This document shows positions 8,705 to 35,000 of a stretch of DNA of 35,537 nucleotides, piece after piece (the stretch's first letter is position 1; each line of letters begins with the position of its first letter). The stretch is from the NCBI GenBank assembly GCA_018648605.1, contig JABGQU010000014.1, positions 1-35,537 on the forward strand, given 5' to 3'. The position numbers were made by a program, and so were the translations under genes. Under the pieces are notes generated by a model. That model saw nothing but the letters and a program-made list of their open reading frames with translations. It did no database searches and was not told where the DNA came from. Source of the DNA: Anaerolineae bacterium (lineage in GTDB: Bacteria > Chloroflexota > Anaerolineae > Anaerolineales > Villigracilaceae).

Positions 8705-8741
8705 ATAGTGAGCCAGAGGAAAACTTCCCCTGGCCCACTAT
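8705..8741 (-). terminator. Intra-operon hairpin after livK1 (partial terminator or stabiliser)
   Basis: Nearly perfect inverted repeat: ATAGTG (8705-8710) pairs with CACTAT (8736-8741) and GCCAG (8712-8716) with CTGGC (8730-8734), with small mismatches. It lies 23 bases past the livK stop and 50 before livH. The minus-strand sequence after it is only moderately T-rich, so partial termination or 3'-end protection of livK mRNA is more likely than full termination. Confidence 0.65.
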
Positions 8742-8763
8742 CAATTTCATGTTAGATCAAAAA

Positions 8764-10753: not shown

Positions 10754-10867
10754 TTTTCCTCGCAAAAAAGGGAATCTTTTTGTAGTGTAGCATACTTAAA
10801 AGGCACATGCAACTATATTTGCAGGATGAAAGAATCGCCTCGCCCCCAAGAGAAACTTGTTCTCGTT

Positions 10868-15879: not shown

Positions 15880-15880
15880 C

Positions 15881-16630
15881 TTATTGTCCCTCCCCCATCC
15901 TAGCCTTCCCCCGAGGGGAGAAGGAATCATTATGAAACAGTTCGCCATCTGCAATTTCTACATGGCGCGAGAATCTCGGCATCAATCCCTTATCATGGGT
16001 AACCATCACAATAGTACGACCGGATTGGACGAGCCGCTCGAAGAGCTGGAAGATGTGATCCGCAGTAAGTGAATCGAGGCTGCCGGTTGGTTCATCCGCA
16101 ACGATCACAGGCGGATCGTTCGCCAGTGCACGTGCTATCGCTACCCGTTGCTGCTGCCCCCCCGAAATATATGCCGGTAACTTATGCGCGTGTTCGCTTA
16201 ACTCGACCATATCGAGCAATTCGATGGCACGCTCACGGCTTTTGCGCGGATGATATAGCCCGCTCATATCCATGGGCATCATCACATTCTGGACGAGGGT
16301 CAGCATAGGCAAAAGTTGGAAAGATTGATAAATAACACCCATTGTGCGACCGCGCCAAAGGGCGAGATCATTTTCACTGAGGGTGTGCAAGGAGATGCTC
16401 TCTCCATTTGTATGGACGATGACCTCACCTGAAGTAAGCTCATCGACACCGGTGAACATATTTAGCAGGGTTGATTTTCCTGCGCCAGATTTTCCGATAA
16501 TGCCGAGAAATTCGCCGCGCTCAATACTTAGATTGATCGTTTTCAGCGCGGGGAAAACGCCTGCTTCGCTTTTGTAGTTTTTGACTACATCACGAAGTTC
16601 GATTAGGGGGTTGAGTTGGGTTTGTGTCAT
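15881..16630 (-). CDS. Canonical MacB/LolD-type ABC ATPase of the exporter
   Basis: A 249-residue ATPase with all motifs intact: Walker A GKSGAGKS (46-53), Q-loop [20 protein letters not shown], signature [15 protein letters not shown], Walker [14 protein letters not shown] and H-loop VMVTHD. It is the canonical partner of the degenerate ATPase that starts one base after its stop (TAA-G-ATG). The last 14 residues ([14 protein letters not shown]) are translated from palindromic repeat copy D and are probably not part of the original fold. No clear ribosome-binding site precedes the ATG. TetR is 135 bases upstream on the same strand, with repeat copy B between. Confidence 0.9.
15888..15925. repeat. 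C/G-rich palindromic repeat, copy D, inside coding sequence
   Basis: CCTTCCCC-CGA-GGGGAGAAGG hairpin with flanking CATCCTAG, matching copy E (CATCCTAACCTTCTCCC...). It encodes the tail of the upstream ATPase and carries the GGGAGG used as ribosome-binding site by the next gene. Confidence 0.7.
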
Positions 16631-18771: not shown

Positions 18772-20028
18772 TTACTCGATCTGACTAAGTTCCGGTCTCA
18801 ACGCCAGCACATCCGCTTCGCTCGCCAATCGGCGTGGGTATTTCGGGTTGAGCATGATCTTTTCCAAGTCATGCCCGATACCCAGACGCATCAGGTAGTA
18901 GCGCGCAAATTGCTGCCTCGTCAAACCGCCACGCGCAATTTCATCCAGTTGCCACGACCAAGTCAGGTATTTGTAGGCAATCCGCTCATCGCTGAAATGT
19001 CGATAAGATTCCTTACGGGTCAGCACGATCCAGACCAACTCCAACATCCGGCGGGCAATGGCGACTATCGCCTGATTACGGTGCATACGGTGGCTTAATT
19101 CCTGAAAACGTCGCTCCCATAACGGGTCCGATTTCACGGCTCGTTGTGCGACTTCGACCATTGCCCAACGAAGGTCGCGACGTCCTTCCTTTGTAATCCG
19201 CTTGCCACGTTTTTTGGTGCCACTCTGCTCTACGCCGGGTACCAAGCCTGAGTAGCCCGAGAGTTTCTTGAAGCTAGGAAAACGAGAAATATCTCCGATC
19301 GCTGCAAGAACAGTCATCCCGGTAATAATCCCAAAGCCCGGTAACTGCATCAAGTACATCATATCCTTAGACCAAGGTGCTTCGTGGCTCATAACTCTCA
19401 ACTTCTCTGTAATCAATTCAGTTTGGGCATGGAGGTGCTGCTTGGTATTCATATCAAGCTCTAGTTGAAATTGCTCTGAACCTGAGAGTTCTTCCGATTG
19501 CTGCCAGCCAATATTCTTTTCTTTGAAGCGTTTCCCCCGGGGATGGCTCAGATGGTGCCGATGTGCCACACTGTGCATCCGGTTCACAGTCGCCGTGTGC
19601 ATCCCGATCAGGTGACGGCGCTGGGATAAGAGATAACGAAGCTCTCGCACATGCGCCGGGGGAACCCAGATCGAGGGAATTAAATTCGCTGCTAGCAAAC
19701 GTGCCAGGATCAGCGTGTCGCGAATATCCGTCTTCACGCGTGCCTGGGCGATTTGCTTCACCTTGATCGGGTTCGCTACCAGAACTTTCTCCGCCAATGG
19801 TTCAAGCAGATCGTAAATATGCCAGGCATTCGTCGTGGATTCAATCACCACATAGTCGCTTGGTTCTATGTGCTTAAGCGCCCACGCTTCCAAATCTCCA
19901 TGCTCGATCCGCCTTGGCTCAAGAACTACATCCCCATCAAAATCTACCCCGGCTACGATGCTGTAATGTTTGTGGATGTCCAGAGCCAAATAACGGCGCG
20001 AAAGTCTTGCATACAGGTCTTCCTTCAT
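18772..20028 (-). CDS. IS110-family transposase (DEDD recombinase)
   Basis: A 418-residue bridge-RNA-type recombinase. The N-terminal RuvC-like DEDD domain has Asp17 (LALDIHKH), Glu63 (VVIESTTN) and Asp101/Asp104 (VKTDIRDTLILARLL). The C-terminal Transposase_20 domain has LPGFGIITGMTVLAAIGDIS, FKKLSGYSGLVPGVEQSG with the conserved Ser269-Gly270, and KEGRRDLRWAM. Length and motif spacing are normal and the frame is intact, so the element may be active. AAGGAGAG lies 6 bases before the ATG. IS110 recombinases work with a structured RNA that pairs with both donor ends and target; a candidate lies immediately upstream. Confidence 0.95.
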   Translation of the reverse strand: MKEDLYARLSRRYLALDIHKHYSIVAGVDFDGDVVLEPRRIEHGDLEAWALKHIEPSDYVVIESTTNAWHIYDLLEPLAEKVLVANPIKVKQIAQARVKTDIRDTLILARLLAANLIPSIWVPPAHVRELRYLLSQRRHLIGMHTATVNRMHSVAHRHHLSHPRGKRFKEKNIGWQQSEELSGSEQFQLELDMNTKQHLHAQTELITEKLRVMSHEAPWSKDMMYLMQLPGFGIITGMTVLAAIGDISRFPSFKKLSGYSGLVPGVEQSGTKKRGKRITKEGRRDLRWAMVEVAQRAVKSDPLWERRFQELSHRMHRNQAIVAIARRMLELVWIVLTRKESYRHFSDERIAYKYLTWSWQLDEIARGGLTRQQFARYYLMRLGIGHDLEKIMLNPKYPRRLASEADVLALRPELSQIE

Positions 20029-20462: not shown

Positions 20463-22334
20463 TTATGCTAGTTCAGCCGGTGTGATCACTGCTTTACCGG
20501 CTTTTTCTGCGAGTGCTTCAAGTGCTGCACGCTGCGATTTGAGCACTGCCGAGAACGCTTCGGGCATATTCTCTTCGGTGCTGTAGAGTTCCTCCATGCG
20601 ATCCAGTTTCGCGAGATATTTATCGGTGCGGATGCTGAATTGCTCATTATATTCTTCAAGGGTGTAATCGCGGTCATCGAAGGCTTCGTCGAAGAGGGGT
20701 TTTAAGTCTTCATATCTGGGAAGGAGACCGATAGGGGTAGCAATAGCTTCGTAGTCACCATGTACACGACCTTCTGCCCACAATGCCCAAACGCGTTTGT
20801 CGGTTTTTTCGTTCATATACTGACCATCTGCATTCTTCAGGAAGTAGTTGGTCGAGAAAACTTTCGGGCAACGTTTGAGTTTAGCGCCGAATTTGAGATG
20901 GTTGGTCAGATAAAGTGACAGGGGCACGATCACGAAATCCATATTTGCCATCGGGCTGGACTTACGTTGACCAACGGCACCAAGAATGGTTGCAGTCGTC
21001 TCGGATTCAATCGTCGCGCCGACGAAGACGCCATGTTCCCAGCTCAGGCTTTCAGAAATCGGGACATTTGTGTCTGAATCACGCCCACCGTAGAAAATGC
21101 CGTCAACGGCAACGCCATCGGGGTTATCGTAGTTTTCATCCGCATTGTCCAATTCACTAATGCTTGTTGTAAAACGGGAGTTGGGATGAGACATGGGAAT
21201 TTCTTTGCCAGCGGCATCCACGTCGCCTTTTTTCCATGCACCGGAGTGATTAAAACCTTCAGTCGGAACTTCAATATCTTTGCCCATGCCAGACCAATAA
21301 GCTTTGCCATCTGCTGTGGTCAAAATATTGCTAAAGATCAATTCTTTTGGCTCGGTGATCGCTTTGAAGATCAAGGGATCGTCTTTGGCATTCACATCCC
21401 CGATAATGCCGAAAATACCGCGCTCAATATTCACAGCGCGCATTTCGCCTTCTGCACCTTCACGGATATAAGCAATATCATCGCCAACAATGGTGGAGCC
21501 TTCGATCATCGCAGTGGAAGTCTTTCCACATCCGCTGGGATACGCACCCATAAAATAGGTCTTACGACGTTCATCCAGCGGATAGAATGCAGAGATGAAC
21601 ATGTGCTCGGTCAGCCAATCTTCTTGATTGGCTTTGTTGATCGCTAAACGCAGGGAGAGCTTCTTGCAAGCCAATGAGTTACCTGCATATTGATTATTCA
21701 CAGACAAAACACGGTTCTCTTGGGGATCAATATAAATGCGACGTTTATCAATATTGACGGTTGTATTATCTTCGCCAAGCTCGCCAGCGCTATGCCAGAA
21801 ATAGAAGAATTCACTTTTGTCTTTCAAGCGTTTAAATTCTTCGTAGCCAGGGCGGTAGAGAATATCTTCGCTATGCCCAACATAATAAGAATCGGTGATC
21901 TGTAAAGAACTAATAGAGAAGCGGGAGTTTGTCGGTCCCAGGCAGAAGAAACGCACGACCATCTCTTTGCCTTCCATCACGCCATCCATAAGCCCCATGA
22001 TCTCTTCGAGAGCAGATTCGCGCTCTTTCACATTCAAGCCACGGCTTAGTGTTTGCCCGGCGGGGAGCAAGGTGGCTGTATTGGCTTTATCACGACCTTG
22101 GTCAAAATAGCCATCATAATGAATGGTATGCCCTTCCATTGCAAGAGCTTTTTCTTCGTTATTATCAAGAGCCATTTGGCGTACTTTGGCAATATCTCCA
22201 GGAGAATCGTCAAAAACAACCACACTGGCAGGTTTCATCAACGCAGCCGCATCGCTAATTATTTGCAATACCTTTGAGTTATCTAAAGCCTCGAGCTTTG
22301 CTTTATCAGCATCTGAAATTTGGTAAGACCACAT
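20463..22334 (-). CDS. pckG: Phosphoenolpyruvate carboxykinase, GTP type
   Basis: Interconverts oxaloacetate plus GTP with PEP, CO2 and GDP: entry to gluconeogenesis from organic acids, or carboxylation in reverse. At about 623 residues it has GTP-PEPCK length and shows RFFCLGPTNSRFSISSLQIT, the metal-binding lysine region NQYAGNSLACKKLSLRLA, the metal-binding histidine in TEHMFI, the P-loop AYPSGCGKTS with the reactive cysteine (usual wording PSACGKTN), kinase-2 VGDDIAYI, and SHPNSRFTTS near the middle. Two ATGs are close: 22340 and 22334. AAAGGA is only 1 base from the first and 7 from the second, so I chose 22334. It is a single-gene unit with its own terminator. The P-loop Ala-to-Gly and Asn-to-Ser changes are unusual but conservative. 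Confidence 0.93.
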   Translation of the reverse strand: MWSYQISDADKAKLEALDNSKVLQIISDAAALMKPASVVVFDDSPGDIAKVRQMALDNNEEKALAMEGHTIHYDGYFDQGRDKANTATLLPAGQTLSRGLNVKERESALEEIMGLMDGVMEGKEMVVRFFCLGPTNSRFSISSLQITDSYYVGHSEDILYRPGYEEFKRLKDKSEFFYFWHSAGELGEDNTTVNIDKRRIYIDPQENRVLSVNNQYAGNSLACKKLSLRLAINKANQEDWLTEHMFISAFYPLDERRKTYFMGAYPSGCGKTSTAMIEGSTIVGDDIAYIREGAEGEMRAVNIERGIFGIIGDVNAKDDPLIFKAITEPKELIFSNILTTADGKAYWSGMGKDIEVPTEGFNHSGAWKKGDVDAAGKEIPMSHPNSRFTTSISELDNADENYDNPDGVAVDGIFYGGRDSDTNVPISESLSWEHGVFVGATIESETTATILGAVGQRKSSPMANMDFVIVPLSLYLTNHLKFGAKLKRCPKVFSTNYFLKNADGQYMNEKTDKRVWALWAEGRVHGDYEAIATPIGLLPRYEDLKPLFDEAFDDRDYTLEEYNEQFSIRTDKYLAKLDRMEELYSTEENMPEAFSAVLKSQRAALEALAEKAGKAVITPAELA

Positions 22335-22464
22335 GAACATATCCTTTCGCGAATTAAATTACTCCGACATTTTTTGGGTAAGTACTATTAATCATAAATA
22401 TTAGCACATAGCGAATATAAAACACCTGCAATATTACGCTTAAAACCGCGATAGATGACACAAA

Positions 22465-23649
22465 CTAATCCCAGTTACGTAAATCTTCGATTGGCGCTGC
22501 ATCTTCAGCGATATCCTCCATGCCTACAATTTCCACATCCACGCGGAATTTGATGCGCTCACGTGCCTCAGCAGATAGCCGCTCTGGCAAAGTTTCTACA
22601 TCGGATGAAGGCGACGGAACCACTCTCAGGGAGAGTTGGTCTCGATGCTCCAAACGTGTGACTCGTGCCTGCCAGCGTACCGCTTCCGCAAACCTAGACA
22701 TCAACCCGTTTAACTGACGTGGGTGCAAAAACATACCGCGTACTTTAACCGCGTCACCGACACGTCCCAGCCAACCCATCAAACGTGGCGAATCCAGCCC
22801 GCAAGAGCAGGCTTCGGGGTGCACAGCCGAGAGATCCCCCGTCCCAAAACGGATGAGGGCATAATCATCGTTATAGAGTGTGACAACCACCTCCCCATTC
22901 TCGCCAGGGGGCATCGGCTGTCCCGAGTTAATATCACAAACCTGAATGATCGCATCGTCGGGCAAATGCCAGCCATCTTCAGCATCACATTCATAGCCAA
23001 GATTACCGCATTCGGCTGTGCCGTATCCCTGCCGAACTGTTTTCACACCGCGCGAGACAAGTTCTTCTCGCAGGGAGGGCGGCAAATACTCAGCGGTCAC
23101 GAAAGCTTTGCTCACATTTAAAGTCACGCCCATCTCGTCGGCTTTATCTAGCAAGGCTTTAAGGTAGGATGGCAAGCCAACATATCCCGTTACGCCAAGG
23201 GTGTGCATTGCCTGAACTTGTTGTTCCTGATTACCGATCCCCCCCGGGATGACGGCACATCCCGCCGCCAAGAGGCCTTCTTCGAACATCGCGCCCGCCG
23301 GAGTAAGATGGTAACCAAAAGCGTTTAGAACTACATCGCCTACACTAAAGCCAGTGGCGTGCATGGCTGATTCCCAGCGCCAGTAATCGTCCCCACGTGG
23401 TTCGGGTTCGTAGATCGGCCCCGGGGACTGGTAGATGCGTTTGAGCGAGCCGGGTTCACAAGCCAGAAAACCGCCAAAGGGCGGCGAGGCTGCCTGGATA
23501 TCTGCCAGATCGTCCTTGCGGATAACGGGCAATTTGTTGAGGGACGAGGCAGATGTTAATTGCGCGGGAGCAAGCCCAGCCTCACGTAGGCGTTCGGCAA
23601 ATCCCGGGGCGTTTTCTGCAAGATGTGTGATCAGTTTAGCAATGTCCAT
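22465..23649 (-). CDS. PaaK-like acyl-CoA ligase with altered phosphate loop
   Basis: Adenylate-forming enzyme of the phenylacetate-CoA ligase type, 394 residues (PaaK about 430). Recognisable: YVGLPSYLKALLDKADEMG, VRQGYGTAECGNLGYEC, RFGTGDLSAV, and the C-terminal hinge and tail GRVGDAVKVRGMFLHPRQL. The glycine/threonine-rich ATP-binding loop (SSGTTGxPT in PaaK) reads QSPGPIYEPE here, so either this subfamily uses a different loop or adenylation is altered. GGAG lies 9 bases before the ATG. Last gene of the second liv cluster, after livF with a 115-base gap. Expected role: activation of an aromatic or other carboxylic acid taken up by the transporter. Substrate not determined. Confidence 0.85.
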   Translation of the reverse strand: MDIAKLITHLAENAPGFAERLREAGLAPAQLTSASSLNKLPVIRKDDLADIQAASPPFGGFLACEPGSLKRIYQSPGPIYEPEPRGDDYWRWESAMHATGFSVGDVVLNAFGYHLTPAGAMFEEGLLAAGCAVIPGGIGNQEQQVQAMHTLGVTGYVGLPSYLKALLDKADEMGVTLNVSKAFVTAEYLPPSLREELVSRGVKTVRQGYGTAECGNLGYECDAEDGWHLPDDAIIQVCDINSGQPMPPGENGEVVVTLYNDDYALIRFGTGDLSAVHPEACSCGLDSPRLMGWLGRVGDAVKVRGMFLHPRQLNGLMSRFAEAVRWQARVTRLEHRDQLSLRVVPSPSSDVETLPERLSAEARERIKFRVDVEIVGMEDIAEDAAPIEDLRNWD

Positions 23650-23764
23650 AGGTCAAGTCTCCGTCCAATTTATCTTTAACATAAATGGCGCGAATAAACG
23701 AATTGCGCGAATTTTGATTCGCATGATTCGGCCACTCGCGCCATTTGAATTAGCTCTTCAAGAA

Positions 23765-24559
23765 TTACGAAAGCCAGCGTTTGCGGCGTTTGTAATGTTT
23801 TACTTCTCGGTAGGATTTACGGCTACCAACTTCGGTGAGGCCGAGGTAAAACTCACGCACGTCTGCATTGGCACGCAGATCGTCGGGATAGCCATCCAGA
23901 ACGATGCGTCCGCTTTCCATAATGTAGGCATAATCAGCAACACCGAGGGTCAGGTTGGCATTTTGCTCCACGAGCAGAATAGTTGTGCCTTGTTCCTGAT
24001 TAATGCGTTTGATAATTTCAAAAATTTCCTGCACCAAAAGCGGTGCAAGCCCCAACGAAGGCTCATCGAGCATCATCAATTGGGGTTTTGCCATGAGGGC
24101 GCGCCCGATGGCAAGCATTTGCTGTTCGCCACCAGAAAGATAGCCAGCGGTTTGATGGCGGCGATCTTTGAGACGTGGAAAATATTCGTAGACCATCTCT
24201 ATATCGGCGCGCGCTTGTGCGCCATCTGAGCGAGTATACCCACCGGCGATGAGATTCTCTTCGGTGGTCAAATGTTCAAAAACACGCCGTCCTTCCATGA
24301 CCTGAAAAATCCCTTTACGAACAATATCAGAAGCATCCATATGGTGGATTTTTTCACCCTTGAAGACAATTCCACCATCGGTTACTTCGCCATCTTCCGG
24401 TTTGAGCAAACCAGAGATCGCTTTTAGGGTTGTTGATTTTCCGGCACCGTTTGAGCCGAGCAGACCAACGATTTTACCCTCGGGCACTTCCATAGACATG
24501 CCTTTGAGTACCAGAATGACATCGTTATAAATGACTTCGATATTATTTAATGAGAGCAT
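23765..24559 (-). CDS. livF: HAAT-family ABC transporter ATP-binding protein LivF, system 2
   Basis: ATPase of transporter 2, 264 residues. Walker A GSNGAGKS near residue 34, VMEGRRVFEHLTTEENLIAG (typical LivF), signature LSGGEQQM, Walker B LMMLDEPSLGLAP and LLVEQN. An insertion (EDGEVTDGGIVFKGEKIHH) and a strongly basic tail (SYREVKHYKRRKRWLS) lengthen it compared with system 1. No good ribosome-binding site precedes the ATG. It follows livK after a strong hairpin. The variant with GIFQVMEGRRVFEHLT is common in ATPases next to acyl-CoA ligases, which agrees with the neighbours. Confidence 0.92.
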   Translation of the reverse strand: MLSLNNIEVIYNDVILVLKGMSMEVPEGKIVGLLGSNGAGKSTTLKAISGLLKPEDGEVTDGGIVFKGEKIHHMDASDIVRKGIFQVMEGRRVFEHLTTEENLIAGGYTRSDGAQARADIEMVYEYFPRLKDRRHQTAGYLSGGEQQMLAIGRALMAKPQLMMLDEPSLGLAPLLVQEIFEIIKRINQEQGTTILLVEQNANLTLGVADYAYIMESGRIVLDGYPDDLRANADVREFYLGLTEVGSRKSYREVKHYKRRKRWLS

Positions 24560-24628
24560 AGGAGTAACCAGTTTTCAGTATCAGTTTGAAGGACAGGATG
24601 GTCGTTATTTCTTAGCGTATGAAAATGT

Positions 24629-24667
24629 GGTGATTGGGGATCGGCCGAAGCGAAATCCCCAATCACC
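24629..24667 (-). terminator. Intra-operon hairpin after livK2
   Basis: Perfect 13-bp arms GGTGATTGGGGAT (24629-24641) and ATCCCCAATCACC (24655-24667) with a 13-nt loop, 15 bases past the livK stop. The following minus-strand sequence has only a short T-run (CATTTTCAT), so it may protect livK mRNA or terminate partially. Confidence 0.75.
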
Positions 24668-24682
24668 TATTTATCTAATATC

Positions 24683-25882
24683 TTATTCAGCAGAGATGTA
24701 GTCGCTAATCGCAGCCCATGATCCACCTTGCACTTCGTAAAGACGCAAGGAGGTATTGCCACGATGGCTGGTTGCTGAGAAGGAAAGCGGGGAAGTTACG
24801 CCGCCGGTATCAAAATTCTGTACCGTTTCAAGCGCGGCTTTGATGTTTTCGCCAGTCAGTTCATCGCCGTTTTTCAAGACGATTTCAATACCTTCTGCCA
24901 TCAGAGCCATTGTCCACCAACCTTGCGTATAGTGCAGGCTAGCTTCGCTAAGGCTCGAACCTTGTTCTTTCAGCCAGGCATCTGCATCTGCGTGCCCGTC
25001 AACAGGAACGCTTGGAGGGGCGAAGGGGATCGTTCCAATAACGCCTTCAGCAGCATCGCCAGCTAATTCGATAAAGCCTTCGTCTGCGCACCAGTTCATG
25101 CAGACGAATGCCACGGAGTCCGTCATACCCTGGCTGGCAGCATCCTTGACCATCACAGCAGCGGGGCTGGAAACGGTGTGGACGATGACATAATTTGCGC
25201 CAAATTGCTGCATTTGCGCCAACTCAGCAACATAATCTGTCACACCGCCAGGCATGGGGAGACTGATGAATGCAACGCCGTTTGCTTCAGCAAATGCTGC
25301 GGCATCTTCAACGGGGGACTGCCCAAAGGGGCTGTCGTGGTGGGTCAAGACGACCGAGGGCATGCCCTCGTTACCTGCCGCTGCCCAATCGTCCATTGCC
25401 CAACGGATCGCAATGATCGCTTGGTCAGAGTAAGAAGTGCCAACGAGGAAGTTATAGGGGGCAGCTTCCATATCTAGAAGACCGGCAGAGTAGGATGCAG
25501 ACATGAAGGGGATCTTATCTGCGGCGATCTTTCCACGCAATGCTTCGGTGTCACCGGTACCCCAGCCTTGGAATACGACAACGCCTTCCTGCACATATTG
25601 TGTATAAAGCAGTTCAGCTTGATCTACTTTATAGGCATAGTCTGCCGAGATCAATTCCACCTGGCGACCTTCAATACCGCCATTGGCATTACGCCACGCA
25701 ACATAGCCCTTAATGCCTTCAGCATAGGGCGTACCAACATCGGATGTTGGTCCGGTCAGATCGTGGATAGCACCAACTTTAATCGATGTGTCGGCATCTC
25801 CACCGCCACCGCCACAGGCTGTGAGGACCATGGCTGCCACAACTAAGGCTGCAAATAAAGCATACATTGTTTTACGGGACAT
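24683..25882 (-). CDS. livK: HAAT-family substrate-binding lipoprotein LivK, system 2
   Basis: Extracytoplasmic receptor of transporter 2. Lipoprotein signal with lipobox LTAC (20-23), then a Gly-rich linker (GGGGGDADTS). The mature protein has the type I binding fold: VGAIHDLTGPTSDVGTPYAE, KGYVAWRNANGGIEGRQVEL, SADYAYKVDQAELLYTQYV and VVLTHHDSPFGQSPVEDAAA. These resemble receptors associated with acyl-CoA ligases more than leucine receptors, but that is memory, not a search. AAAGGAG lies upstream of the ATG. It is preceded by the CBS-ACT gene (49-base gap) and followed by a stable hairpin. Differs clearly in sequence from LivK of system 1. Confidence 0.92.
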   Translation of the reverse strand: MSRKTMYALFAALVVAAMVLTACGGGGGDADTSIKVGAIHDLTGPTSDVGTPYAEGIKGYVAWRNANGGIEGRQVELISADYAYKVDQAELLYTQYVQEGVVVFQGWGTGDTEALRGKIAADKIPFMSASYSAGLLDMEAAPYNFLVGTSYSDQAIIAIRWAMDDWAAAGNEGMPSVVLTHHDSPFGQSPVEDAAAFAEANGVAFISLPMPGGVTDYVAELAQMQQFGANYVIVHTVSSPAAVMVKDAASQGMTDSVAFVCMNWCADEGFIELAGDAAEGVIGTIPFAPPSVPVDGHADADAWLKEQGSSLSEASLHYTQGWWTMALMAEGIEIVLKNGDELTGENIKAALETVQNFDTGGVTSPLSFSATSHRGNTSLRLYEVQGGSWAAISDYISAE

Positions 25883-25931
25883 TCTCTTTTCTCCTTTGGT
25901 TGAGATGAATAAAAAGATCGAACTATATCAA

Positions 25932-26603
25932 CTATTTGCCATACTCACTTGGTGAATAATTGATATGAGAACGTAAATCCACAATAGAGATTTCTCTCTC
26001 TGCCAAACGTTTTTTCAGGGCTTCCACATCTGCCCCGGTTTCTTTGATCGTCACTTCGCTGGTCGCATCTTCATTGATATTGGTCGTCGTTACGGCAAGG
26101 ATATTTCCATTTGCAGCGGCGATATCTTCAGCAATCTTTGCCAATTGACCAGGGCGATCTGGTAATTCAATGGTCAGGCGCACACCTTCCACAAAGCCGC
26201 CGAGCACACTCACAAAGGCTTTGAAGATGTCGGTCTCGGTGATGATTCCAACTAACTTATCATCTTCCATCACGGGCAGAGAACCAATTTTTCTATCGAT
26301 CATGATGCCAGCAGCAGCTTCCATTGGGCAATTAGGCGTAGCCGTCACAACAGGGCTGGTCATAAATTGCTCCACTTTAAGTTTCTCAAGCAAGCCATAC
26401 ATTTCGTGGATGCTTAATGTCGTTGCTGGTGAAGGTTGGCTCGAAAGCAAGTCTTTTTCAACAACAATACCAACCAATTTGCCTTTATTCACCACAGGCA
26501 AGCGCCGAATATTCTTCTCACGCATTAAGCCAATGGCTTCAGGATAGGTTGTTTTTGGGTTAATGCTGAGTGGATCAGCTGTCATAAAATCACGAACAAA
26601 CAT
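25932..26603 (-). CDS. AcuB-like CBS-CBS-ACT domain protein
   Basis: A 223-residue cytoplasmic sensor: CBS domain 1 (about 1-55, VRDFMTADPLSINPKTTYPE and RRLPVVNKGKLVGIV), CBS domain 2 (about 78-130, VEQFMTSPVVTATPN and GSLPVMEDDKLVGIITETD), then an ACT domain (about 140-215, RLTIELPDRPGQLAKIAEDI). This is the architecture of AcuB. CBS pairs usually bind adenine nucleotides and ACT domains amino acids or other small ligands, so it may report energy state or pathway product. GAGGT precedes the ATG. It is inside the second liv operon, between livM (12-base gap) and livK, so a role tied to this uptake/activation pathway is likely. Confidence 0.9.
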   Translation of the reverse strand: MFVRDFMTADPLSINPKTTYPEAIGLMREKNIRRLPVVNKGKLVGIVVEKDLLSSQPSPATTLSIHEMYGLLEKLKVEQFMTSPVVTATPNCPMEAAAGIMIDRKIGSLPVMEDDKLVGIITETDIFKAFVSVLGGFVEGVRLTIELPDRPGQLAKIAEDIAAANGNILAVTTTNINEDATSEVTIKETGADVEALKKRLAEREISIVDLRSHINYSPSEYGK

Positions 26604-26615
26604 GTTTTTTACCTC

Positions 26616-27659
26616 TTAGTAACTAAAGGGCCACAGACGGAAATAATCTTTAATATTTTTCCACATCTTATTTAAGCCTTCGGGTTCAAAGACAAGGAAT
26701 AAGATAATTACCAAACCAAAAGCAGCTTGCTGAATAAAAGGCAATATAGAATCAACTATTGGAAGCGATGACTTTAATGCACGTCCAACATTTGACAAAA
26801 TAGCGGGGAGCAAGGTCATAAAGGCTGCCCCGTAGAAAGAGCCACGCACAGACCCCAAACCACCGATGATGATCATCGCCAAATAAAGCACCGAAACATC
26901 AATGGTGAAACGTTCCCAAGTGACAATACTACGATAATGTGCTGTCAGCGCACCTGCCATCCCAACAAAGAAGGAGGATGTTGCGAAAGAAAGCAACTTA
27001 TATTTGAAGAGATTGATACCCATCACTTCTGCGGCAATATCCTGATCGCGAATGGCGATAAAAGCACGCCCAAAATGCGTGCGGAAGAGATTCGCCGTTA
27101 GCAAAGCCGTCACGCCGGCCAATGCCCAAACCAGCCAGTAAAAATTGAAATCAGTACTCATATTGATGCCGAAAAGCATCGGAGCAGGAACGACCAACGC
27201 ATCCACGCCACCAGTGACCGCATCCCAGTGAGTGACGACCCACAGGATAATCTCTTGTGAAGCCAGAGTCGCAATGGCCAGATAAAGTCCTTTCAAACGC
27301 AGAGATGGGATACCGAATAACGCACCCACAATTGCTGTTACCAAACAGGCAATGATCGTGGACGCCCACCAAGGCATGCCCATGTTAATGGTAAGGATTG
27401 CGGCTGCATATGCACCAACCGCCATAAAACCACCCTGCCCCAAGCTGATCTGCCCTGTATAGCCGACAAGGATATTCAGCCCGATAGCACCAATTGTCGC
27501 AATGCCGATCTGGTTGGCAAGGGTCAAATAGTAGCGGTCAGCGAAAAAGGGAAATACAAGCATCAAGATGCCGAAGATCACCCAGCGCAACTTTTCATGA
27601 AAGGTGTGACGCAACCCCATATCCGCTTTGTAAGTTGAGTGAAAAATGCCAGAATTCAT
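26616..27659 (-). CDS. livM: HAAT-family permease LivM, system 2
   Basis: Membrane subunit of transporter 2, 347 residues, ordinary LivM size. Hallmarks: IGLNILVGYTGQISLGQGGF with the following MAVGAYAAAIL, the coupling region LAIATLASQEIILWV, RDQDIAAEVMGINLFKYKLL and the C-terminal IIGGLGSVRGSFYGAAFM. About eight or nine membrane segments. The start at 27659 has a distant AGGT; an internal ATG at residue 14 is possible. Unlike LivM of system 1 there is no large N-terminal extension. It follows livH after 71 bases. Confidence 0.92.
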   Translation of the reverse strand: MNSGIFHSTYKADMGLRHTFHEKLRWVIFGILMLVFPFFADRYYLTLANQIGIATIGAIGLNILVGYTGQISLGQGGFMAVGAYAAAILTINMGMPWWASTIIACLVTAIVGALFGIPSLRLKGLYLAIATLASQEIILWVVTHWDAVTGGVDALVVPAPMLFGINMSTDFNFYWLVWALAGVTALLTANLFRTHFGRAFIAIRDQDIAAEVMGINLFKYKLLSFATSSFFVGMAGALTAHYRSIVTWERFTIDVSVLYLAMIIIGGLGSVRGSFYGAAFMTLLPAILSNVGRALKSSLPIVDSILPFIQQAAFGLVIILFLVFEPEGLNKMWKNIKDYFRLWPFSY

Positions 27660-27730
27660 AGGTTTTTTTACCTGCTTCTTTGTTACATTCTCTCTTCCTG
27701 TATAGAAGAGAGCTAGGGTAAGGGCAAAAC

Positions 27731-28603
27731 TTAAACGCGCTCGATAATTTCCTGACCGAAGAGACCGTATGGACGCACCATCAGGATCAGGATAAGAATG
27801 GCAAAAGGAGCAACCTGATTAAGTCCGTGCCCTACATAACCACCGGTATAGGTTTCTAACAAGCCAATGATGATCCCGCCAACGATCGCGCCCGGGATCG
27901 AGTCTAAGCCGCCCAAGATGACCACAGGGAAAACGCGCAAACCGAAATGACTCAATTCCTGGCTGACACCAACGATATTCGCTACCAATGCCCCACCAAT
28001 GGAAGCACTGATCGCTGCGATAGACCACGCCCAGGCAAAGATCTTCTTGACGCTGATCCCCATACTCAGGGCAGCCTGTTGATCGTCTGCGACGGCGCGC
28101 ATGGCGATGCCTTCCTTCGAGCGACGGAAGAAGAAGGTGAATAATCCCAGCATGACAATCGCGATCACTATCGCCCACAGGCGGTCTGCGCCGATGGTTG
28201 CGCCCATAATATTGACAGGCGTACTAGGGATGAAAGGCGGAAAAGCTTTCGGCTGGTTGCCCCAGATCGTGCTAACAATCGCTTTTAGCAGACTGCTGAG
28301 ACCAATGGTGACCATAATAACGGAGATGATCGGCTCACCGATCAGTGGGCGTAGCACCAAGCGTTCTACAACGGCACCAAGCCCAATCGCAATAGCGATC
28401 GTGATGAGCATGCCGAGAGGCCACGCCAAGCCAAATTGAGCGACCATCCCATAAACAACGTAGCCGCCGATCAACAGAAATTCGCCTTGTGCAAAGTTGA
28501 TGACGTCGCTGGCTTTATAGATCAGCACAAAGCCAAGCGCAGCCAATGCCAATATTGCGCCATTGGTCAAACCGGTGAGTGTCAACTGAATAAAAAGTTC
28601 CAT
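27731..28603 (-). CDS. livH: HAAT-family permease LivH, system 2
   Basis: Membrane subunit of transporter 2, 290 residues, standard LivH length. It starts directly with the first helix (LTLTGLTNGAILALAALGFV) and has the hallmark DVINFAQGEFLLIGGYV, the coupling loop AMRAVADDQQAALSMGISVK and VVILGGLDSIPGAIVGGIII. CGGA lies upstream of the ATG. It follows the acyl-CoA synthetase gene by 136 bases. Confidence 0.93.
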   Translation of the reverse strand: MELFIQLTLTGLTNGAILALAALGFVLIYKASDVINFAQGEFLLIGGYVVYGMVAQFGLAWPLGMLITIAIAIGLGAVVERLVLRPLIGEPIISVIMVTIGLSSLLKAIVSTIWGNQPKAFPPFIPSTPVNIMGATIGADRLWAIVIAIVMLGLFTFFFRRSKEGIAMRAVADDQQAALSMGISVKKIFAWAWSIAAISASIGGALVANIVGVSQELSHFGLRVFPVVILGGLDSIPGAIVGGIIIGLLETYTGGYVGHGLNQVAPFAILILILMVRPYGLFGQEIIERV

Positions 28604-28739
28604 GAGAGTTCCGTTTTCCTAAAAGTATTCCGAGATCTGCCACGTGCCAACGTTAGCGGAATTGGTTTGTCGTTCAGAAAATGGCTGATATAAGGGAAGC
28701 AAGCCCAAATTCTGGTGCGACGCGCCTAATTCCATCTAT

Positions 28740-30650
28740 CTACTCTTTAATGCCCATATCTTCGATCCGCAAGCGGGTTTGCAAGGTTGCTGTGCGTCCG
28801 TCCTGATAGGTGATAACCGTCTCTACATCTAAATGGGGACTTTGGCTGTAGAGCGCCGAAACGATATCATCGTAGCGTTGTGCAACCACATTGCGGCGCA
28901 CCTTGCGCGTGCGGGTCAATTCGGCGTCGTCCGCATCCAACTCTTTATGGAGCAAAACAAAACGACGGATACGCGCAGCCGGCGGCAGGTCTACATTGGC
29001 TTCTTCCACACGAACGCGCACCAACTCATACACTTCTGACTTTTGCGCCAGATCGGTATAGGTCGTATATGTCAAATGATTATTTTCTGCCCACTTACCT
29101 ACATTTGCAAAATCAATATTTAGCATAGCGGTCACAAAGGGCCAATCGCCACCAAAAACCACGGCTTCTTTTACATAGGGGCTGAACTTGAGTTTGTTTT
29201 CAATGAATTGCGGGCTAAATTTGGTGCCGTCGTGAAGCGTCATCACATCTTTTGCGCGATCAATAACGATCAAATGTCCGTCATCATCGAAATAGCCGGC
29301 ATCGCCCGTTTGCAACCACCCATCTACCAGCGTCTCTTTGGTGGCTTCTTCGTTTTTATAGTAGCCGATCATTACAGCCGGAGATGAAACCAGGATTTCG
29401 CCACTCTCATCAATTTTAATCTCTGTTTCCGGGATGGGTGTCCCGACAGTTTGGAATTTGACATCCCCATCACGATGCACTACCGATATTCCACTTGTTT
29501 CCGTTGACCCGTAAATCTGCTTAAGGTTGACACCTAGCGCATGGAAGAAACGAAAAACATCCGGTCCCAAAGCGGCACCGCCTGTATACGCCCGATCAAG
29601 ATGACGCAAGCCAAGTTGATCTTTGATCTCCTGAAAAACTGCCCAGTCTGCCCAGAAATATTTGAGTTTCTGCACAAAGGTAGGAGTTTCTTTACGGAAG
29701 CGGATATCAGCCATCTCGTAGCCAATTTTAAGTGCCCGCTGATACATCGACTGTTTGAGCTTGGTACTGTCTTCGATCTTGACCTGCACCTGCGAGATGA
29801 GATTCTCCCAAATACGCGGCGGGCTGAACATTGCCTGCGGTCCGATCTCACGGATATCGTGCTGGACAGTCTCTGGCTCTTCAGGGAAATTGATCGTGAA
29901 ACCGATCTGCAACCCGCAGCCCAAGGACATCATCTGTTCACCGATCCATGCCAAAGGCAGGAAGGAGACAAATTCATCACCCGGCGCAATGGGATCGATG
30001 CTCATGAGATTATCTCCCATGCTCAGCAGATTCTTATGGGTCAGCATGGCAAGTTTCGGATTCCCGGTCGTACCGGATGTGGTCGAGAGAATGGCAAGGT
30101 CGCTTTCTTTCCCCAAGGCAACGCGTGCTTCCCACCAGCCGGGATTCTCTTCGTCAAATTTGCGCCCCATTTCTTCCACATCGGGGAAGTAGAGCAGATA
30201 GTCTTCAGTGTAATTACGCAACCCCTTGGGATCGTAATAGATCACCTTGCGGATGCCTTTCAGGTCATCCCACATTTCGAGCAATTTATCAACTTGCTCC
30301 TGATCTTCGACGACTACGAAGGAAACATCGGCGTGATTAAAGATATAAACCATCTCTTTGACGACTGCATCCTGATAGATGCCGATGCTTTTCGCACCAA
30401 CAGCCTGCGCTGCCAACTCCGAGATGACCCACTCAGGGCGATTATCACCAATGATGGCAATCGTCTCTTCGGGGACTAAACCCAGGCTATGCAAACCAAG
30501 TGAAAAAAACTTAACGTGGTCGAGGTATTCACGCCAGGTCAACGCCTGCCAAATGCCATAATTGCGCTCGCGGAGCGCTGTCGCTTCTGGCGTTGTCTGA
30601 GCATGTTGAAGGAGGTATTGCGGTAAGGTTTCGGGCATGGATTTCTCCAA
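28740..30650 (-). CDS. fadD: Long-chain-type acyl-CoA synthetase (AMP-forming)
   Basis: Activates a carboxylic acid to its CoA thioester using ATP. At 636 residues it belongs to the longer AMP-binding branch. The AMP-binding motif is ILSTTSGTTGNPKLAMLTH, followed by DEFVSFLPLAWIGEQ, KQIYGSTETSGISVVHRDGD, LQTGDAGYFDDDGHLIVIDR and the hinge/tail DVMTLHDGTKFSPQFIENKL. A late lysine-rich TRTKVRRN-type segment appears as LTRTRKVRRNVVAQRYDDIV. GGAG lies 8 bases before the ATG. It sits 7 bases after livG, so transport and activation are co-expressed. Chain length or aromatic preference cannot be read; the gene symbol is by family, not proven orthology. Confidence 0.88.
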   Translation of the reverse strand: MEKSMPETLPQYLLQHAQTTPEATALRERNYGIWQALTWREYLDHVKFFSLGLHSLGLVPEETIAIIGDNRPEWVISELAAQAVGAKSIGIYQDAVVKEMVYIFNHADVSFVVVEDQEQVDKLLEMWDDLKGIRKVIYYDPKGLRNYTEDYLLYFPDVEEMGRKFDEENPGWWEARVALGKESDLAILSTTSGTTGNPKLAMLTHKNLLSMGDNLMSIDPIAPGDEFVSFLPLAWIGEQMMSLGCGLQIGFTINFPEEPETVQHDIREIGPQAMFSPPRIWENLISQVQVKIEDSTKLKQSMYQRALKIGYEMADIRFRKETPTFVQKLKYFWADWAVFQEIKDQLGLRHLDRAYTGGAALGPDVFRFFHALGVNLKQIYGSTETSGISVVHRDGDVKFQTVGTPIPETEIKIDESGEILVSSPAVMIGYYKNEEATKETLVDGWLQTGDAGYFDDDGHLIVIDRAKDVMTLHDGTKFSPQFIENKLKFSPYVKEAVVFGGDWPFVTAMLNIDFANVGKWAENNHLTYTTYTDLAQKSEVYELVRVRVEEANVDLPPAARIRRFVLLHKELDADDAELTRTRKVRRNVVAQRYDDIVSALYSQSPHLDVETVITYQDGRTATLQTRLRIEDMGIKE

Positions 30651-30657
30651 GAATTCT

Positions 30658-31515
30658 TTAGAGTTCTATCATCTTCATCGGGGCGGTACTTTGATCTTCG
30701 CCAAGATAAGCTTTAATGACGGCTTCATTCTGGCGAACTTCATCAGGCGTGCCATCACCGATCTTTTGACCGAAGTTCAAAACGGCAATACGATCACTGA
30801 TGTCCATGATGACGCCCATATCATGTTCGATCAAAACAATGGTGACGCCGTGCTCTTCGTTCACATCCAGGACAAAGCGCGCCATATCTTCTTTTTCTTC
30901 AGCATTCATGCCCGCCATCGGCTCGTCGAGCAATAAGATAGCAGGCTTCATCGCCAGCGCGCGTCCCAACTCAACACGTTTCTGCAATCCATACGCCAAC
31001 GAGCCAACCGGCTGATCACGAATGGCTTGAATTTCGAGCAAATCAATGATGTCTTCTACAAAACGACGGAAGGCGATCTGTTCACGTTGGGCTTTACCCC
31101 AGTAGATCATGCTCGAAAGCAAGCTCGTCTTCATATGGACATGCGCACCTGCCATCAAATTTTCCAGCACGGTCATGTGACGGAATAACTCGATATTCTG
31201 GAAAGAACGGGCGATGCCCAACGAAGCGATCTGATAGGGTTTTAAACGAGTGATCTCATGTTCCGCTTTGCCTGTGTAATAGGTGATGCTCCCCTGTTGC
31301 GGATGATATAGCCCACTGATGCAGTTCAGTAAAGATGTCTTCCCTGCACCGTTGGGTCCGATAATGGCAAAAATCTCGCTTTGACGGATGGATAAACTGA
31401 CATCGTATAAAGCGGTAACGCCTCCAAACCCTAGCTTGACATGATCTGCTTTAAGTTGCAGGTCACCGGGTTTTAGATGGCTACTATTTAGAGTATGACG
31501 AAAATCACGCTGCAT
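30658..31515 (-). CDS. livG: HAAT-family ABC transporter ATP-binding protein LivG, system 2
   Basis: ATPase of transporter 2 and first gene of the cluster, 285 residues. Walker A GPNGAGKT, TSLLNCISGLYHPQQGSITY, GIARSFQNIELFRHMTVLEN, the LivG-style signature LAYGLQKRVELGRAL, Walker B ILLLDEPMAGMNAEEKED and H-loop VLIEHDMGVIMD. An extra N-terminal stretch (MQRDFRHTLNSSHLKPGD) precedes the fold; the ATG at 31515 has a very good AAGGAG site, so this start is likely. The 528-base gap upstream probably holds the operon promoter and operators. Confidence 0.93.
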   Translation of the reverse strand: MQRDFRHTLNSSHLKPGDLQLKADHVKLGFGGVTALYDVSLSIRQSEIFAIIGPNGAGKTSLLNCISGLYHPQQGSITYYTGKAEHEITRLKPYQIASLGIARSFQNIELFRHMTVLENLMAGAHVHMKTSLLSSMIYWGKAQREQIAFRRFVEDIIDLLEIQAIRDQPVGSLAYGLQKRVELGRALAMKPAILLLDEPMAGMNAEEKEDMARFVLDVNEEHGVTIVLIEHDMGVIMDISDRIAVLNFGQKIGDGTPDEVRQNEAVIKAYLGEDQSTAPMKMIEL

Positions 31516-31570
31516 AGAGACTCCTTGTACAAGAGTAATGACACTATCTTATTCAAGGCGCGCTATCAAA

Positions 31571-31589
31571 GCGTTAACGCAGGCGTTAA
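31571..31589. promoter_or_regulatory. Candidate operator upstream of livG2
   Basis: Perfect 10-bp palindrome GCGTTAACGC (31571-31580), with GCGTTAA repeated at 31583-31589, about 60 bases before the livG2 start. Position suits a repressor or activator site; the factor is unknown. Confidence 0.35.
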
Positions 31590-31631
31590 TAAAAATTGAG
31601 TTTTTGGGCGTTTTTTCGCTAAAGAAACGAA

Positions 31632-31662
31632 AAAGTGACAAAATCTGCACCTTTGTCACTTT
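31632..31662. promoter_or_regulatory. 11-bp perfect inverted repeat upstream of livG2
   Basis: AAAGTGACAAA (31632-31642) and TTTGTCACTTT (31652-31662) with a 9-nt spacer, about 120 bases upstream of livG2. The arms are too A/T-rich for a good terminator. The GTGAC/GTCAC spacing is not that of CRP/FNR sites. Candidate binding site for a dimeric regulator, possibly the BTAD protein encoded upstream. Confidence 0.45.
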
Positions 31663-31745
31663 AAGTGATTACTTATGTGAATTGAAAATTGGGTAATGCT
31701 TAATCAATAACTCATGTTACGCAGTGATGAAGCATTGACTGTCTT

Positions 31746-31827
31746 TTCCCCTCATCCTAACCTTCTCCCAAAGGGAGAAGGGATTAAGTCCCCTCTCCCT
31801 TTGGGAGAGGGCGGAGTGGTGAGGGCA
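31746..31827. repeat. C/G-rich palindromic repeat, copy E (double hairpin)
   Basis: Hairpin CTTCTCCC-AAA-GGGAGAAG at 31762-31780, then CCCTCTCCC-TTT-GGGAGAGGG at 31791-31811. It begins CATCCTAACCTTC, closely matching copy D at 15888-15925. Confidence 0.75.
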
Positions 31828-31918
31828 GCCCCAAAGTCTGCCAAAGGCATCTTCTGCGTAACACCAATCAATAAGTGATACCCTCCCCTGATTTGTCTCT
31901 GCGAGCAGTTCTTGCGAA

Positions 31919-31947
31919 GCAGTCTCCCTATAAATGAGGGAGATTGC
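31919..31947. repeat. GCAGTCTCCCT/AGGGAGATTGC hairpin repeat
   Basis: 11-bp arms with one G-U type mismatch, 7-nt loop, preceded by GCGAGCAGTTCTTGCGAA. The wording resembles the GCGAAGCAATCTCC-type dispersed repeats seen in many bacterial genomes. Single copy in this window. Confidence 0.5.
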
Positions 31948-32043
31948 CAAAATGCCCCCCTGCGGGAACACTCTGCCATGCTTCGTTCGCACGAGTACCC
32001 TTCAGCGTAATGACGTCATTTAGGTTGACGCACTACCGGAAAT

Positions 32044-35000
32044 TTATTCTTCCAAATTGGGGCCGCGCAAATCCATATCAAGAATGACGACCGCGCCTTT
32101 TCTTTCGCCGGCAGCCTGCCCTTGTGCCAAGCGCAGTTCTTCTGCCATGCCTAATTCGTCGAAAATGGAGGTGGCGCGGAAGTGGCAATCCACTGCCCAG
32201 GCGGTTTGCCCGGCACGATCATAAAGACGCCTTAATGCCAGGTAGGTGCGAGCAAGATCAGGGCGCGCGCGGATCCGGCGCAGAATGCGCATCGACTCGA
32301 TCAGATATTCCTCCACTTTGAGCCAATCCGGTTTTGTCGTTCGGCTTAGTATCTCTGCCAATAAACGCAGCGTGACGCCCTCTGCCCAGCGATTTCCTTC
32401 GACGCGCGCAGCAATGAGTGCATCTTCTGCTTCGTTTTTGGCATCCGTTAATTCATCTGCCAGAGAAAGGCTTTCTGCCAAAAAGATGCGCGGCAAATAG
32501 TGAAAAACGCGATAATCGTTTTCTTCAACCCATTGCAAGGCTTCGCGGATAACGACAACGCCTTCGGCTGGCTCGCCCAAATGAGCGCGCACCAATCCAC
32601 GCAGACCTGTCAAGATGAAACGCAGCGGCGTAAATTCACTCGTGCCAGCTTGCATCTCTGGCAAAGCTTCGATGGTTTTGGCGCAAGCTTCCCAACGATG
32701 ACGCGCGGCGAGAACATAGGCCAGTGGAGCCATCGCAAAGGCTATCGTCGAGGCTGCGCCCTGTTCTTTTGCGAGGGCAACACCATGCTCGGCGGCATCG
32801 CGGGCGCGCTCCCAGGAGCCAACGCGCGCATAGGCAACGCCCAAATATCCATAAACGACCAGTAAATTGGGATGATAATGACTCTCTGGCGCATCTTCAA
32901 GATTGACGTAACGTAGCAAATAGGCAATCGCATCGTCGAAGGCTGCTAACGCAATGCTGCTGCGACCGAGCATCCGCAAGGCGGCCCGCAAAAGGGAAAT
33001 ATCTTGCTGTTCTTCAGCAACGCGCAGTGTGCGATGCGCGTAATCGCCCGCGGCTTTGGGATTGCCACGCAGCCAAAAGATCTGTGCCGCGCGTCGAAAT
33101 ATTTTCCCCACCCGTTCTTCATCATTAAGCTGCGTTGCCAAATGCTCGGCTTGCTCGATCATCTCCTGCGCCCGCACAAGATCACCGCTAAAAGCATAGG
33201 CTTGGGCGAGTTGCAGGTTCAGATCAATGCGTTCCTGATGCTGCTTCGGTCCCGTTTGCCGGCCTAACATACTAACCGCCTGCGAGCCAAACTGACGTGC
33301 CTCCTGATAGGAGTGGATGCGCAAAGCCTGTTCGCCCGCTTCTGTTAGATAAGGCAGCGCTTTAATGGCCTGATCGCTGCGCGAATAATGATGCGCAAGA
33401 GTTGCCGCATCCACGGGGATGACGGCGTTCTCGAAAATCTCGGCAATACAGCGATGCACATATTGTCGACGTGCGCGGCTCAAGCCTGCATAGGCCACCT
33501 GACGAATTTTATCGTGGCTGAAATCGTAGCCTTCGCTGCTTTCGACAACCAAACCTTTTTGCTGCCACTCTTCAATCGTAGCGATAACTTCCTTTGCGGG
33601 GGCTTCGCTCACTTCCTGCAATAACGAAAAGGTGAAAGCACGCCCAATCGCTGCCGCAATAGCCAGCAATTCCTGACTTTGTGCATCGAGGCGATCAAGC
33701 CGCGCTTCGATCAGGCTTTGAATAGGCGGCGGCAAATTCGCTGCCCCGCGCTCCTGCCCCCCGCCAAAAGGCAAACGCGCAGGATGTGCGCTCTCGCGCA
33801 ACGAGCGAATGCCTTCAATAATAAAGAAGGGGTTGCCTTCGGTCTCTTGATAAAGCCGCTGGAAAAAGTAGGCATCGTGGGAAGCATCATCGAGCAGATA
33901 TTTGGCGAGCGTTAGGCTTTCGTCGGGCGTCAGGCGCTCGAGCGGTAATTGCATAAAGGAATCTTTGCGCTTGAGGGCACGCAATAAGCGTTCTTGTTCT
34001 GGGGGCAAATCTTCCAGGCGACAGGAGCCAACCAACACGAGCGGCAGGTCTGCCAAACGATGCGTAAGCGCATCGAGCAGTTCCCACGTCAAACTATCGG
34101 CCCAGTGCAGATCGTCCAGCATCAGCAAGATCGGGGTCGCGTTCGTCCCGTCGCCCTTGGTCAGATGAAGCAAAAGCTGGGTGATCGCTTCCGGAGTTTG
34201 AACTTTCTCACGGCGATCGGGCTGCCAAAGAGGCAAGCTCGCAAATTGACGCCGTAAATCTGGTAAAACGGGAGTCAGCGCAGCAAGCCAGGGCTGCAAA
34301 TCCAGAAGTTCATCTTCGGGCAGGCGCGCGAGAAGGCTATGCAAAATACTGCGCAAGGGCGCGTAGGCCACCATGGATTCGACTTCGTGGCAAAGGCTTT
34401 GTAATGTGAATTGGGAATCTGCCGACAGCAGATATTCGTGCAGCAGGCGAGTTTTACCAATACCTGAATCACCTGTGAGCAGGATAAAGCGGCCGCGCCC
34501 GACCTTGGCTTGCTCCCACGCAGCATGAATTTTGCTTAATTCCGATTGGCGTCCCACCAACGGTAATTGCGGCGGTATGAGCGTGGCTTCTTCTTTCGGC
34601 AATAATGCGACAGCAGGCTCTGCCCGCCGCACCGCCCCCGATTGGATCATTTCAATAAAGGCTTGGGTTTCGGGCAGCGGCTCTGTGCCCAGCTCATTTT
34701 TAAGTTGCTCTTTGAGTTGCTGATAATGTTGCAAGGCCTGATTGCGTTTTCCCAGCTCAACATAAAGAGACATCAAGCGCTGATGCGCGGCTTCATCAAA
34801 AGGTTCAGCAGCCGTCCATTTGCAGGTCACTTCGAGCGCATCATCGGGACGATATTCTTCTTGCAGCTTTTCGCTCAGACGGTCGAGACTGCGCAAAAAA
34901 CGCTGCCGCAGTTCCTGGCGCTCGTCGGCACACCAATCTTCGTAGAGATCATCGAGCAGGTCACCACGATAAAGTGCGATACCTTCTGATAATTCATCCA

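Follow-up and report, generated by a model that had tools for sequence, protein, structure and literature searches.

Why should an operon for a HAAT-type ABC importer enclose a gene for an AMP-forming acyl-CoA ligase and end in a second gene that resembles a phenylacetate-CoA ligase? The question is raised by contig JABGQU010000014.1 of an Anaerolineae bacterium (assembly GCA_018648605.1; genome of 3.26 Mb in 211 contigs, 96% complete), of which positions 1-35537 form the stretch analysed here, hereafter the window (35,537 nucleotides). Open reading frames (ORFs) were listed and then searched with Pfam and NCBIfam hidden Markov models. Eight genes run from 31515 to 22465, all on the minus strand and separated by 7-136 bp, in the order livG, acs, livH, livM, acuB-like, livK, livF, paaK-like (Table 1), just as an earlier note made from the sequence had described them. 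Their Pfam domains comprise two BPD_transp_2 permeases, two ATPases and a Peripla_BP_6 receptor, that is, a HAAT ABC importer. The subunit set, the domains and the fold of LivK are those of E. coli LivFGHMJ/K, from which the window operon differs in enclosing a ligase gene. We put the probability at about 0.55 that the operon imports a carboxylate other than an amino acid and traps it at once as its CoA thioester, with the ligase possibly docked through a C-terminal tail of LivF and the PaaK-like protein, marked by the motif SPGP, as an accessory.

Across several phyla livG-acs-livH-livM-livK-livF-paaK recurs as a conserved core module. The gene acs was searched in 40 relatives and 201 Chloroflexota genomes, and 32 regions were picked among the better matches. 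In 30 of these livH-livM-livK-livF come after acs in an unchanged order, and because it recurs so often the arrangement is not due to chance; the exceptions are a contig that stops after livM (L059) and a distant homologue, chosen deliberately, without liv genes (L080). Of the 32 regions, 27 contain paaK. A ligase alignment (A1) was also scanned against 84,980 species, one genome each. In every one of the named loci, which are the 80 best among at least 588, a liv gene lies on the acs strand no more than 1.5 kb away from acs; 44 of these loci also show paaK. The commonest orders are livG-acs-livH-livM-livK-livF-paaK (19 loci) and acs-livG-livH-livM-livK-livF-paaK (11); many of the remaining orders are interrupted by contig ends. 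Titles of records with the module name Chloroflexi, Bacillota/Firmicutes, Thermodesulfobacteriota and other Desulfo- groups, Actinomycetota, alpha-, beta- and gammaproteobacteria and, without paaK, Thermaceae. The distribution is patchy even within the genus: genus-mates G004 and G001 have close acs orthologues, and the other six of the eight searched have none. We note that livK of G004 is split into several open frames (L054, 8210-11103), by a duplicate or an assembly fault. A search of openly licensed PMC papers found no description of this gene cluster. What is unusual is that a trio of tailed LivF, dedicated ligase and a PaaK relative lacking the ATP loop recurs in several phyla.

The first ligase looks intact. 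In an alignment of 19 acs orthologues, the 18 others being 42-73% identical to the window copy, T191, S192, G193, T194, T195, K199, E384, D450, R465 and K583 are invariant (19/19). We take these to be the positions of the ANL P-loop, the A5 Glu, the A7 Asp, A8 and the A10 Lys, and acs is predicted to be an ANL acyl-CoA ligase with intact motifs. Its start codon is likely the ATG at 30638, since close relatives begin there. A C-terminal extension with [YF]xDG is carried by all 110 complete operon acs sequences (106 distinct); it is absent from the acs homologues compared and from loci L300-L305, which are considered below.

The second apparent ligase has a different character. SPGP replaces the SSGT of the PaaK loop SSGTTGKP in all 72 operon copies, the window's included (69 distinct), and 56 of these were aligned to E. 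coli PaaK. S-P-G-P occupies positions 93-96 in every row, with T96 replaced by Pro; Thr97 has become I, L or V in 54/56 and Lys99 an acid in 56/56, while Ile333, in the A8 region, is Lys throughout. The operon copies do not fit the PaaK P-loop pattern [ST][SGT]G[TS], and the cut-offs of the NCBIfam PaaK equivalogs are missed (98 bits against 646 for TIGR02155, 147 against 700 for NF041878). As controls we used 40 of 121 listed lower-scoring matches, hand-picked down the list from the same Chloroflexota sample: all 40 keep the canonical loop, none has SPGP, and two have an acid at position 99. A tree from which the P-loop, A8 and A10 columns had been removed (quick search, no bootstrap) separates the 56 SPGP rows from the controls and E. 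coli PaaK at a branch whose SH-aLRT is 100. When the 56-row profile was run over the 201 Chloroflexota genomes, 29 genes scored 482-587 bits, all of them SPGP, and 26 adjoin livF; the next gene down, at 286 bits (L202), reads SSGTTGKP. One gene was found in the bacterium's own genome with the window protein as query.

These substitutions bear on the proposal of the earlier note that two ligases serve two substrates or steps, the PaaK-like enzyme adenylating a second, aromatic acid through an unusual loop. Like the phenylacetate-CoA ligase PaaK, the SPGP protein has the overall fold (best PDB match 2y4o) and keeps Arg301 and Asp306 in 56/56 rows and an acid, E or D, at Glu242 in 56/56; a Lys near the A10 position in 30/56 would also suit a second enzyme. 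It differs from PaaK in its replaced P-loop, its acidic position 99, its invariant A8-region Lys and its separate clade, and the paralogues retain the loop that it has lost. In the window protein the A10 Lys is absent (EDAAPIEDLR), with no Lys in the last 14 residues. The P-loop comparison led us to reject a second true CoA ligase, which we regard as improbable; because the ATP loop is gone, the ORF is a ligase by homology only.

Decay of the gene was considered and rejected, the ORF being intact and the ratio of nonsynonymous to synonymous substitution (dN/dS) about 0.09 relative to genus-mate G004, at a dS of about 1.5 that is near saturation. In the same comparison acuB stood at about 0.08, and acs, livH, livM and livF at 0.03-0.04; livG was saturated, and livK was left out, its frame being broken up in G004. 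The paaK-like gene is under purifying selection and therefore probably encodes a functional non-ligase. From sequence comparison, the SPGP protein is conserved, probably functional and very probably unable to hold ATP as ligases do. An AlphaFold 2 (AF2) model (predicted local distance difference test score, pLDDT, 94.4) has the PaaK fold, the best match 2y4o being PaaK2 with phenylacetyl-adenylate. The model superposes with a root-mean-square deviation of about 3 on chains of 2y4o, 4r1l_A and 6he0 (titled as a thioesterification state) and of about 11 on 2y27 and 6hdw; we keep this as a hint only, because the hinge pose of an AF2 model is weak evidence.

Some remoter side copies in Desulfo-type genomes have lost the loop in other ways (VNPGLIY in L223, VHPGPQY in L224, IAPGPLV in L225). 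An ACT-domain protein is encoded directly 3' of the SPGP paaK of L220 (8307-8813) and of the SPGP-like paaK of L223 (8650-9162), both away from the transporter, which suggests a recurrent PaaK-ACT partnership echoing the paaK-acuB neighbours. Another stand-alone SPGP paaK (L204, 1067-4238) lies by an SDR gene and an opposite-strand BcrAD/BadFG (BadF/BcrA-type) ATPase gene.

What, then, does the transporter carry? In an alignment to E. coli LivJ at low identity, Glu226 is replaced in all 27 LivK sequences (22 Asn, 3 Val, 1 Ile, 1 His); none has Glu or Asp there and none has Ser at position 79. We take Glu226 and Ser79 to be the LivJ residues that hold the alpha-amine and carboxylate of the amino acid, and the window LivK differs from LivJ in having no counterpart of either. 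The earlier note had asked whether LivK groups with leucine or urea receptors. Its best NCBIfam scores, 33-37 bits against cut-offs of 477-495, show a poor fit to those models, by model scores only, no LivK tree having been built. The closest structures are 3lkb, 3eaf, 4ru0 and 4n03, the last titled 'Fatty acid ABC transporter substrate-binding protein'. The aromatic-acid HAAT receptors of Rhodopseudomonas palustris (4evs, 4f06, 4ey3) share the fold, and two of them, 4evs and 4ey3, have titles that give hydroxybenzoate-type ligands, but LivK is only 19-20% identical to these receptors. The alignment thus favours, as ligand of the window LivK, a carboxylate without an alpha-amine.

A conventional importer of leucine or valine, whose ligase acts on the derived branched-chain acid, is the alternative here. 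It would explain the title of 3lkb, 'with bound valine', and the acyl-CoA dehydrogenase and carboxylase alpha-/beta-type genes that follow paaK in L140, a set we take to be reminiscent of leucine/isovalerate catabolism. The loss of the LivJ amine-binding Glu226 and of Ser79 in 27/27 sequences argues against it, in an alignment of low identity, and we judge it unlikely. The LivK of L111, a Thermus operon of the same type without paaK, closely resembles 3lkb by eye; given the valine in 3lkb, a branched-chain amino-acid ligand is therefore possible for some members, at least in Thermus, where valine is a serious rival.

The remaining distinctive feature is the end of LivF. Operon LivF proteins close with a basic, near-invariant sequence of the form RKSY(R/K)(D/E)VKHYKRRKRWL. 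The pattern [KR]RRKR[WF] occurs near the end of 87/87 complete operon LivF proteins (30/30 and 57/57; 84 distinct), and K254, R258, R259, K260 and R261 are identical in 88/88, counting the window; the last four residues lie inside the search pattern, which dropped no LivF. The mean frequency of the commonest residue is 0.88 over residues 247-263 and 0.74 over residues 1-238. E. coli LivF and the other LivF of the window (4312-5025) do not have the tail. A LivF search in five genomes gave 91 matches, and 30 loci were returned, two pairs showing the same ORF. Six of the loci read have the tail (L267-L272), all acs operons, five of them known and L272 a further one; the 24 other LivF/LivG-type loci are without it.

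Could such a tail be a general device for stability or membrane anchoring, with acs and paaK merely co-regulated neighbours? KRRKRW is very basic and could contact lipid or RNA, and a sister group of acs-HAAT loci ends LivF in another basic-aromatic tail: L277, beside a divergent acs (34%), has RRWKKKKTWR, and a divergent-acs search of 120 genomes gave four more loci of this kind, with (R/K)RWK(K/R)KK(T/N)WR tails and no acs extension. The sister group (L300-L304) lacks both the KRRKRW tail and the extension, and the 12-18 kb read around each of the five sister-kind loci yielded no paaK. The absence of the tail from the other LivF/LivG-type loci, together with its higher conservation, suggests a specific partner, and we think a general role rather unlikely. 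Docking of the tail to the acs extension is weakened because L305/L316, where no paaK was detected in 13 kb, has the tail and an acs without the extension. Docking to PaaK is disfavoured, since three Thermaceae genomes (G242, G244, G245) keep the tail as KAY(K/R)RRKRFM and no SPGP PaaK was found in them at E 1e-90.

Genes of acyl-CoA catabolism stand beside several of the other copies. Acyl-CoA dehydrogenase-type genes flank L128, L130, L140, L143 and L122, carboxylase-type subunit genes L140, L119 and L155, and CaiB-type CoA-transferases L118 and L101, with an HMGL-like lyase in L101 and ETF in L118. Most of these genes score below the NCBIfam cut-offs, and the loci are those selected for reading rather than a sample set against chance. 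L219 reads livM-livK-livF-x-paaK-acuB-merR-thiolase-3HCDH-acyl-CoA dehydrogenase. Clustering of flanking ORFs in the 80 named loci gave small recurring groups only, the largest in seven loci. The bacterium's own genome has six acyl-CoA dehydrogenase matches.

The module, the intact ligase motifs, the lost P-loop, the LivF tail and, by alignment, the changed LivK pocket are directly supported. Uptake with immediate CoA activation, as first proposed in the earlier note, gains support from the ligase that stands beside the transporter across phyla, from the acyl-CoA catabolism genes flanking several copies and from a LivK without the amino-acid residues of LivJ. In the mechanism we propose, a HAAT-type ABC importer would be adapted to a small hydrophobic carboxylic acid, not an alpha-amino acid. 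The FAA1-type ligase would make the CoA thioester as the acid enters and so trap the acid for catabolism of the beta-oxidation type, in a transport-coupled acylation. The LivF tail would most likely serve as the docking point at which the transporter holds the ligase or a shared partner. Since the PaaK-like protein has kept the fold and the AMP-ribose-contacting Asp and lost the triphosphate loop, its most probable ligand is AMP, acyl-AMP or acyl-CoA, and it may modulate or complete the step of ligase or transporter. We are more doubtful of a tighter version, in which a single complex would couple uptake to CoA ligation through a LivF tail dedicated to docking the FAA1-type ligase, with the SPGP paralogue as a gate, either a sensor of AMP/acyl-adenylate or acyl-CoA or a catalyst of the thioester half-reaction only.

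Several observations weigh against the mechanism that we propose. The Lys near A10 in 30 PaaK-like rows is what a working ligase might show, in a gapped and ambiguous part of the alignment. Three of the 29 Chloroflexota SPGP genes lie away from livF, two after an SDR gene, L204 being one of them, and one (L203) among unannotated genes. The closest solved structure to LivK, 3lkb from Thermus, has valine in its title. Some clades have a LivK that is 21-25% identical to the window's; substrates may therefore differ. L305/L316 combines KRRKRW in LivF with an acs lacking [YF]xDG, and what would tie the tail to acs is a correlation between sequences. Within the window, no beta-oxidation gene adjoins the operon.

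Vectorial acylation is known from FadL/FadD in E. coli and from the peroxisomal ABC transporter Comatose with acyl-CoA synthetases. The coupling of import to CoA ligation that we propose for the window operon resembles these; it differs in that the importer is a bacterial ABC system that depends on a binding protein and has a candidate docking tail. If the proposal is right, the labels 'phenylacetate-CoA ligase' and 'branched-chain amino acid transporter' would mislead for this operon type, since the receptor probably does not serve amino acids and the PaaK-like gene probably encodes no ligase. The proposal would also offer a testable case of bacterial ABC import coupled directly to CoA activation, with a defined LivF motif, KRRKRW, and would add to the ANL fold a conserved clade that keeps the ribose-contacting Asp and discards the ATP loop.

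The same proposal would provide a context for AcuB without AcuC. The earlier note had placed a nucleotide or ligand sensor in the operon. A protein of nucleotide-sensor type is there: it has two CBS domains and a C-terminal ACT domain, and phmmer matches it to 5awe (2.6e-52) and AcuB 9s4w (4.3e-22). As a core member we rejected it because its presence is sporadic. The gene lies next to the block or within it in the window, in 2/32 Chloroflexota regions (L054, L061), in L219 and at 5/80 named loci (L093, L097, L115, L106, L109). In PMC13121692 and PMC13039410 (2026), AcuB of Bacillus is reported to bind adenine nucleotides (AMP/ADP, or Ap4A) and to inhibit AcuC, the deacetylase that reactivates acetyl-CoA synthetase. 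By plain position count, unaligned, Arg33/His34 given in PMC13121692 correspond to Arg/Arg in the window protein. The window protein shares CBS-CBS-ACT with AcuB of the Bacillus acu operon and differs in sitting with an acyl-CoA ligase and a transporter. A PF00850 search found no AcuC-type deacetylase (0 matches) in the 96% complete genome, the control being positive in 9/14 genomes including B. subtilis; AcuB in the operon would therefore have to act on something else, and the simplest candidates are the ligase, the transporter and the SPGP protein. Where present, it would report adenylate charge.

Table 1 Features of the operon in the window (positions in the window)
Feature	Position	Strand	Basis
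livG, HAAT ATPase	30658..31515	-	Pfam ABC_tran + BCA_ABC_TP_C; NCBIfam LivG 264 bits, cut-off 362
acs, FAA1/FadD11-like AMP-forming acyl-CoA ligase (predicted)	28740..30650	-	Pfam AMP-binding 8.7e-69, AMP-binding_C_3
acs C-terminal extension with [YF]xDG	28755..28829	-	present in complete operon acs copies
livH, permease	27731..28603	-	BPD_transp_2
livM, permease	26616..27659	-	BPD_transp_2
acuB-like, two CBS + ACT, facultative member	25932..26603	-	Pfam CBS, TTHA0829-like_ACT
livK, substrate-binding protein	24683..25882	-	Peripla_BP_6; AF2 pLDDT 93.3; pocket comparison
livF, HAAT ATPase	23765..24559	-	ABC_tran; NCBIfam LivF 240 bits, cut-off 441
LivF C-terminal tail, residues 247-263, RKSYREVKHYKRRKRWL	23771..23821	-	[KR]RRKR[WF] pattern near LivF end
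paaK-like gene, SPGP clade, predicted non-user of ATP	22465..23649	-	sequence comparisons; AF2 pLDDT 94.4
Replaced P-loop SPGPIYEP in PaaK-like protein	23404..23427	-	aligned to E. coli PaaK SSGTTGKP 93-100

Rfam and tRNA searches gave no match. A promoter/terminator scan of 22000-32200 was set aside, because its counts were at or below those of shuffles (8 against 12.4; 11 against 11.8). The operon is flanked by a GTP-PEPCK gene and by a SARP/BTAD regulator gene. The regulator, with AAA and TPR domains, lies upstream of livG (32044-35355); in L056/L086 and L083, too, livG has a SARP-type gene ahead of it. A second HAAT set occupies 4312-10026 and encodes LivF (the one without the tail), LivG, a 573-residue permease with some 270 residues ahead of its BPD_transp_2 domain, another permease and a receptor; an ornithine cyclodeaminase-family gene (3183-4283) adjoins it. 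An ABC ATPase with a C-terminal cyclic-nucleotide-binding domain is encoded at 14716-15954, near genes for an FtsX/MacB-type permease, another ATPase and an HlyD-type protein, and an IS110-type transposase gene (18772-20028) lies between this exporter cluster and the PEPCK gene. A lone cyclic-nucleotide-binding protein is encoded at 10277-10765.

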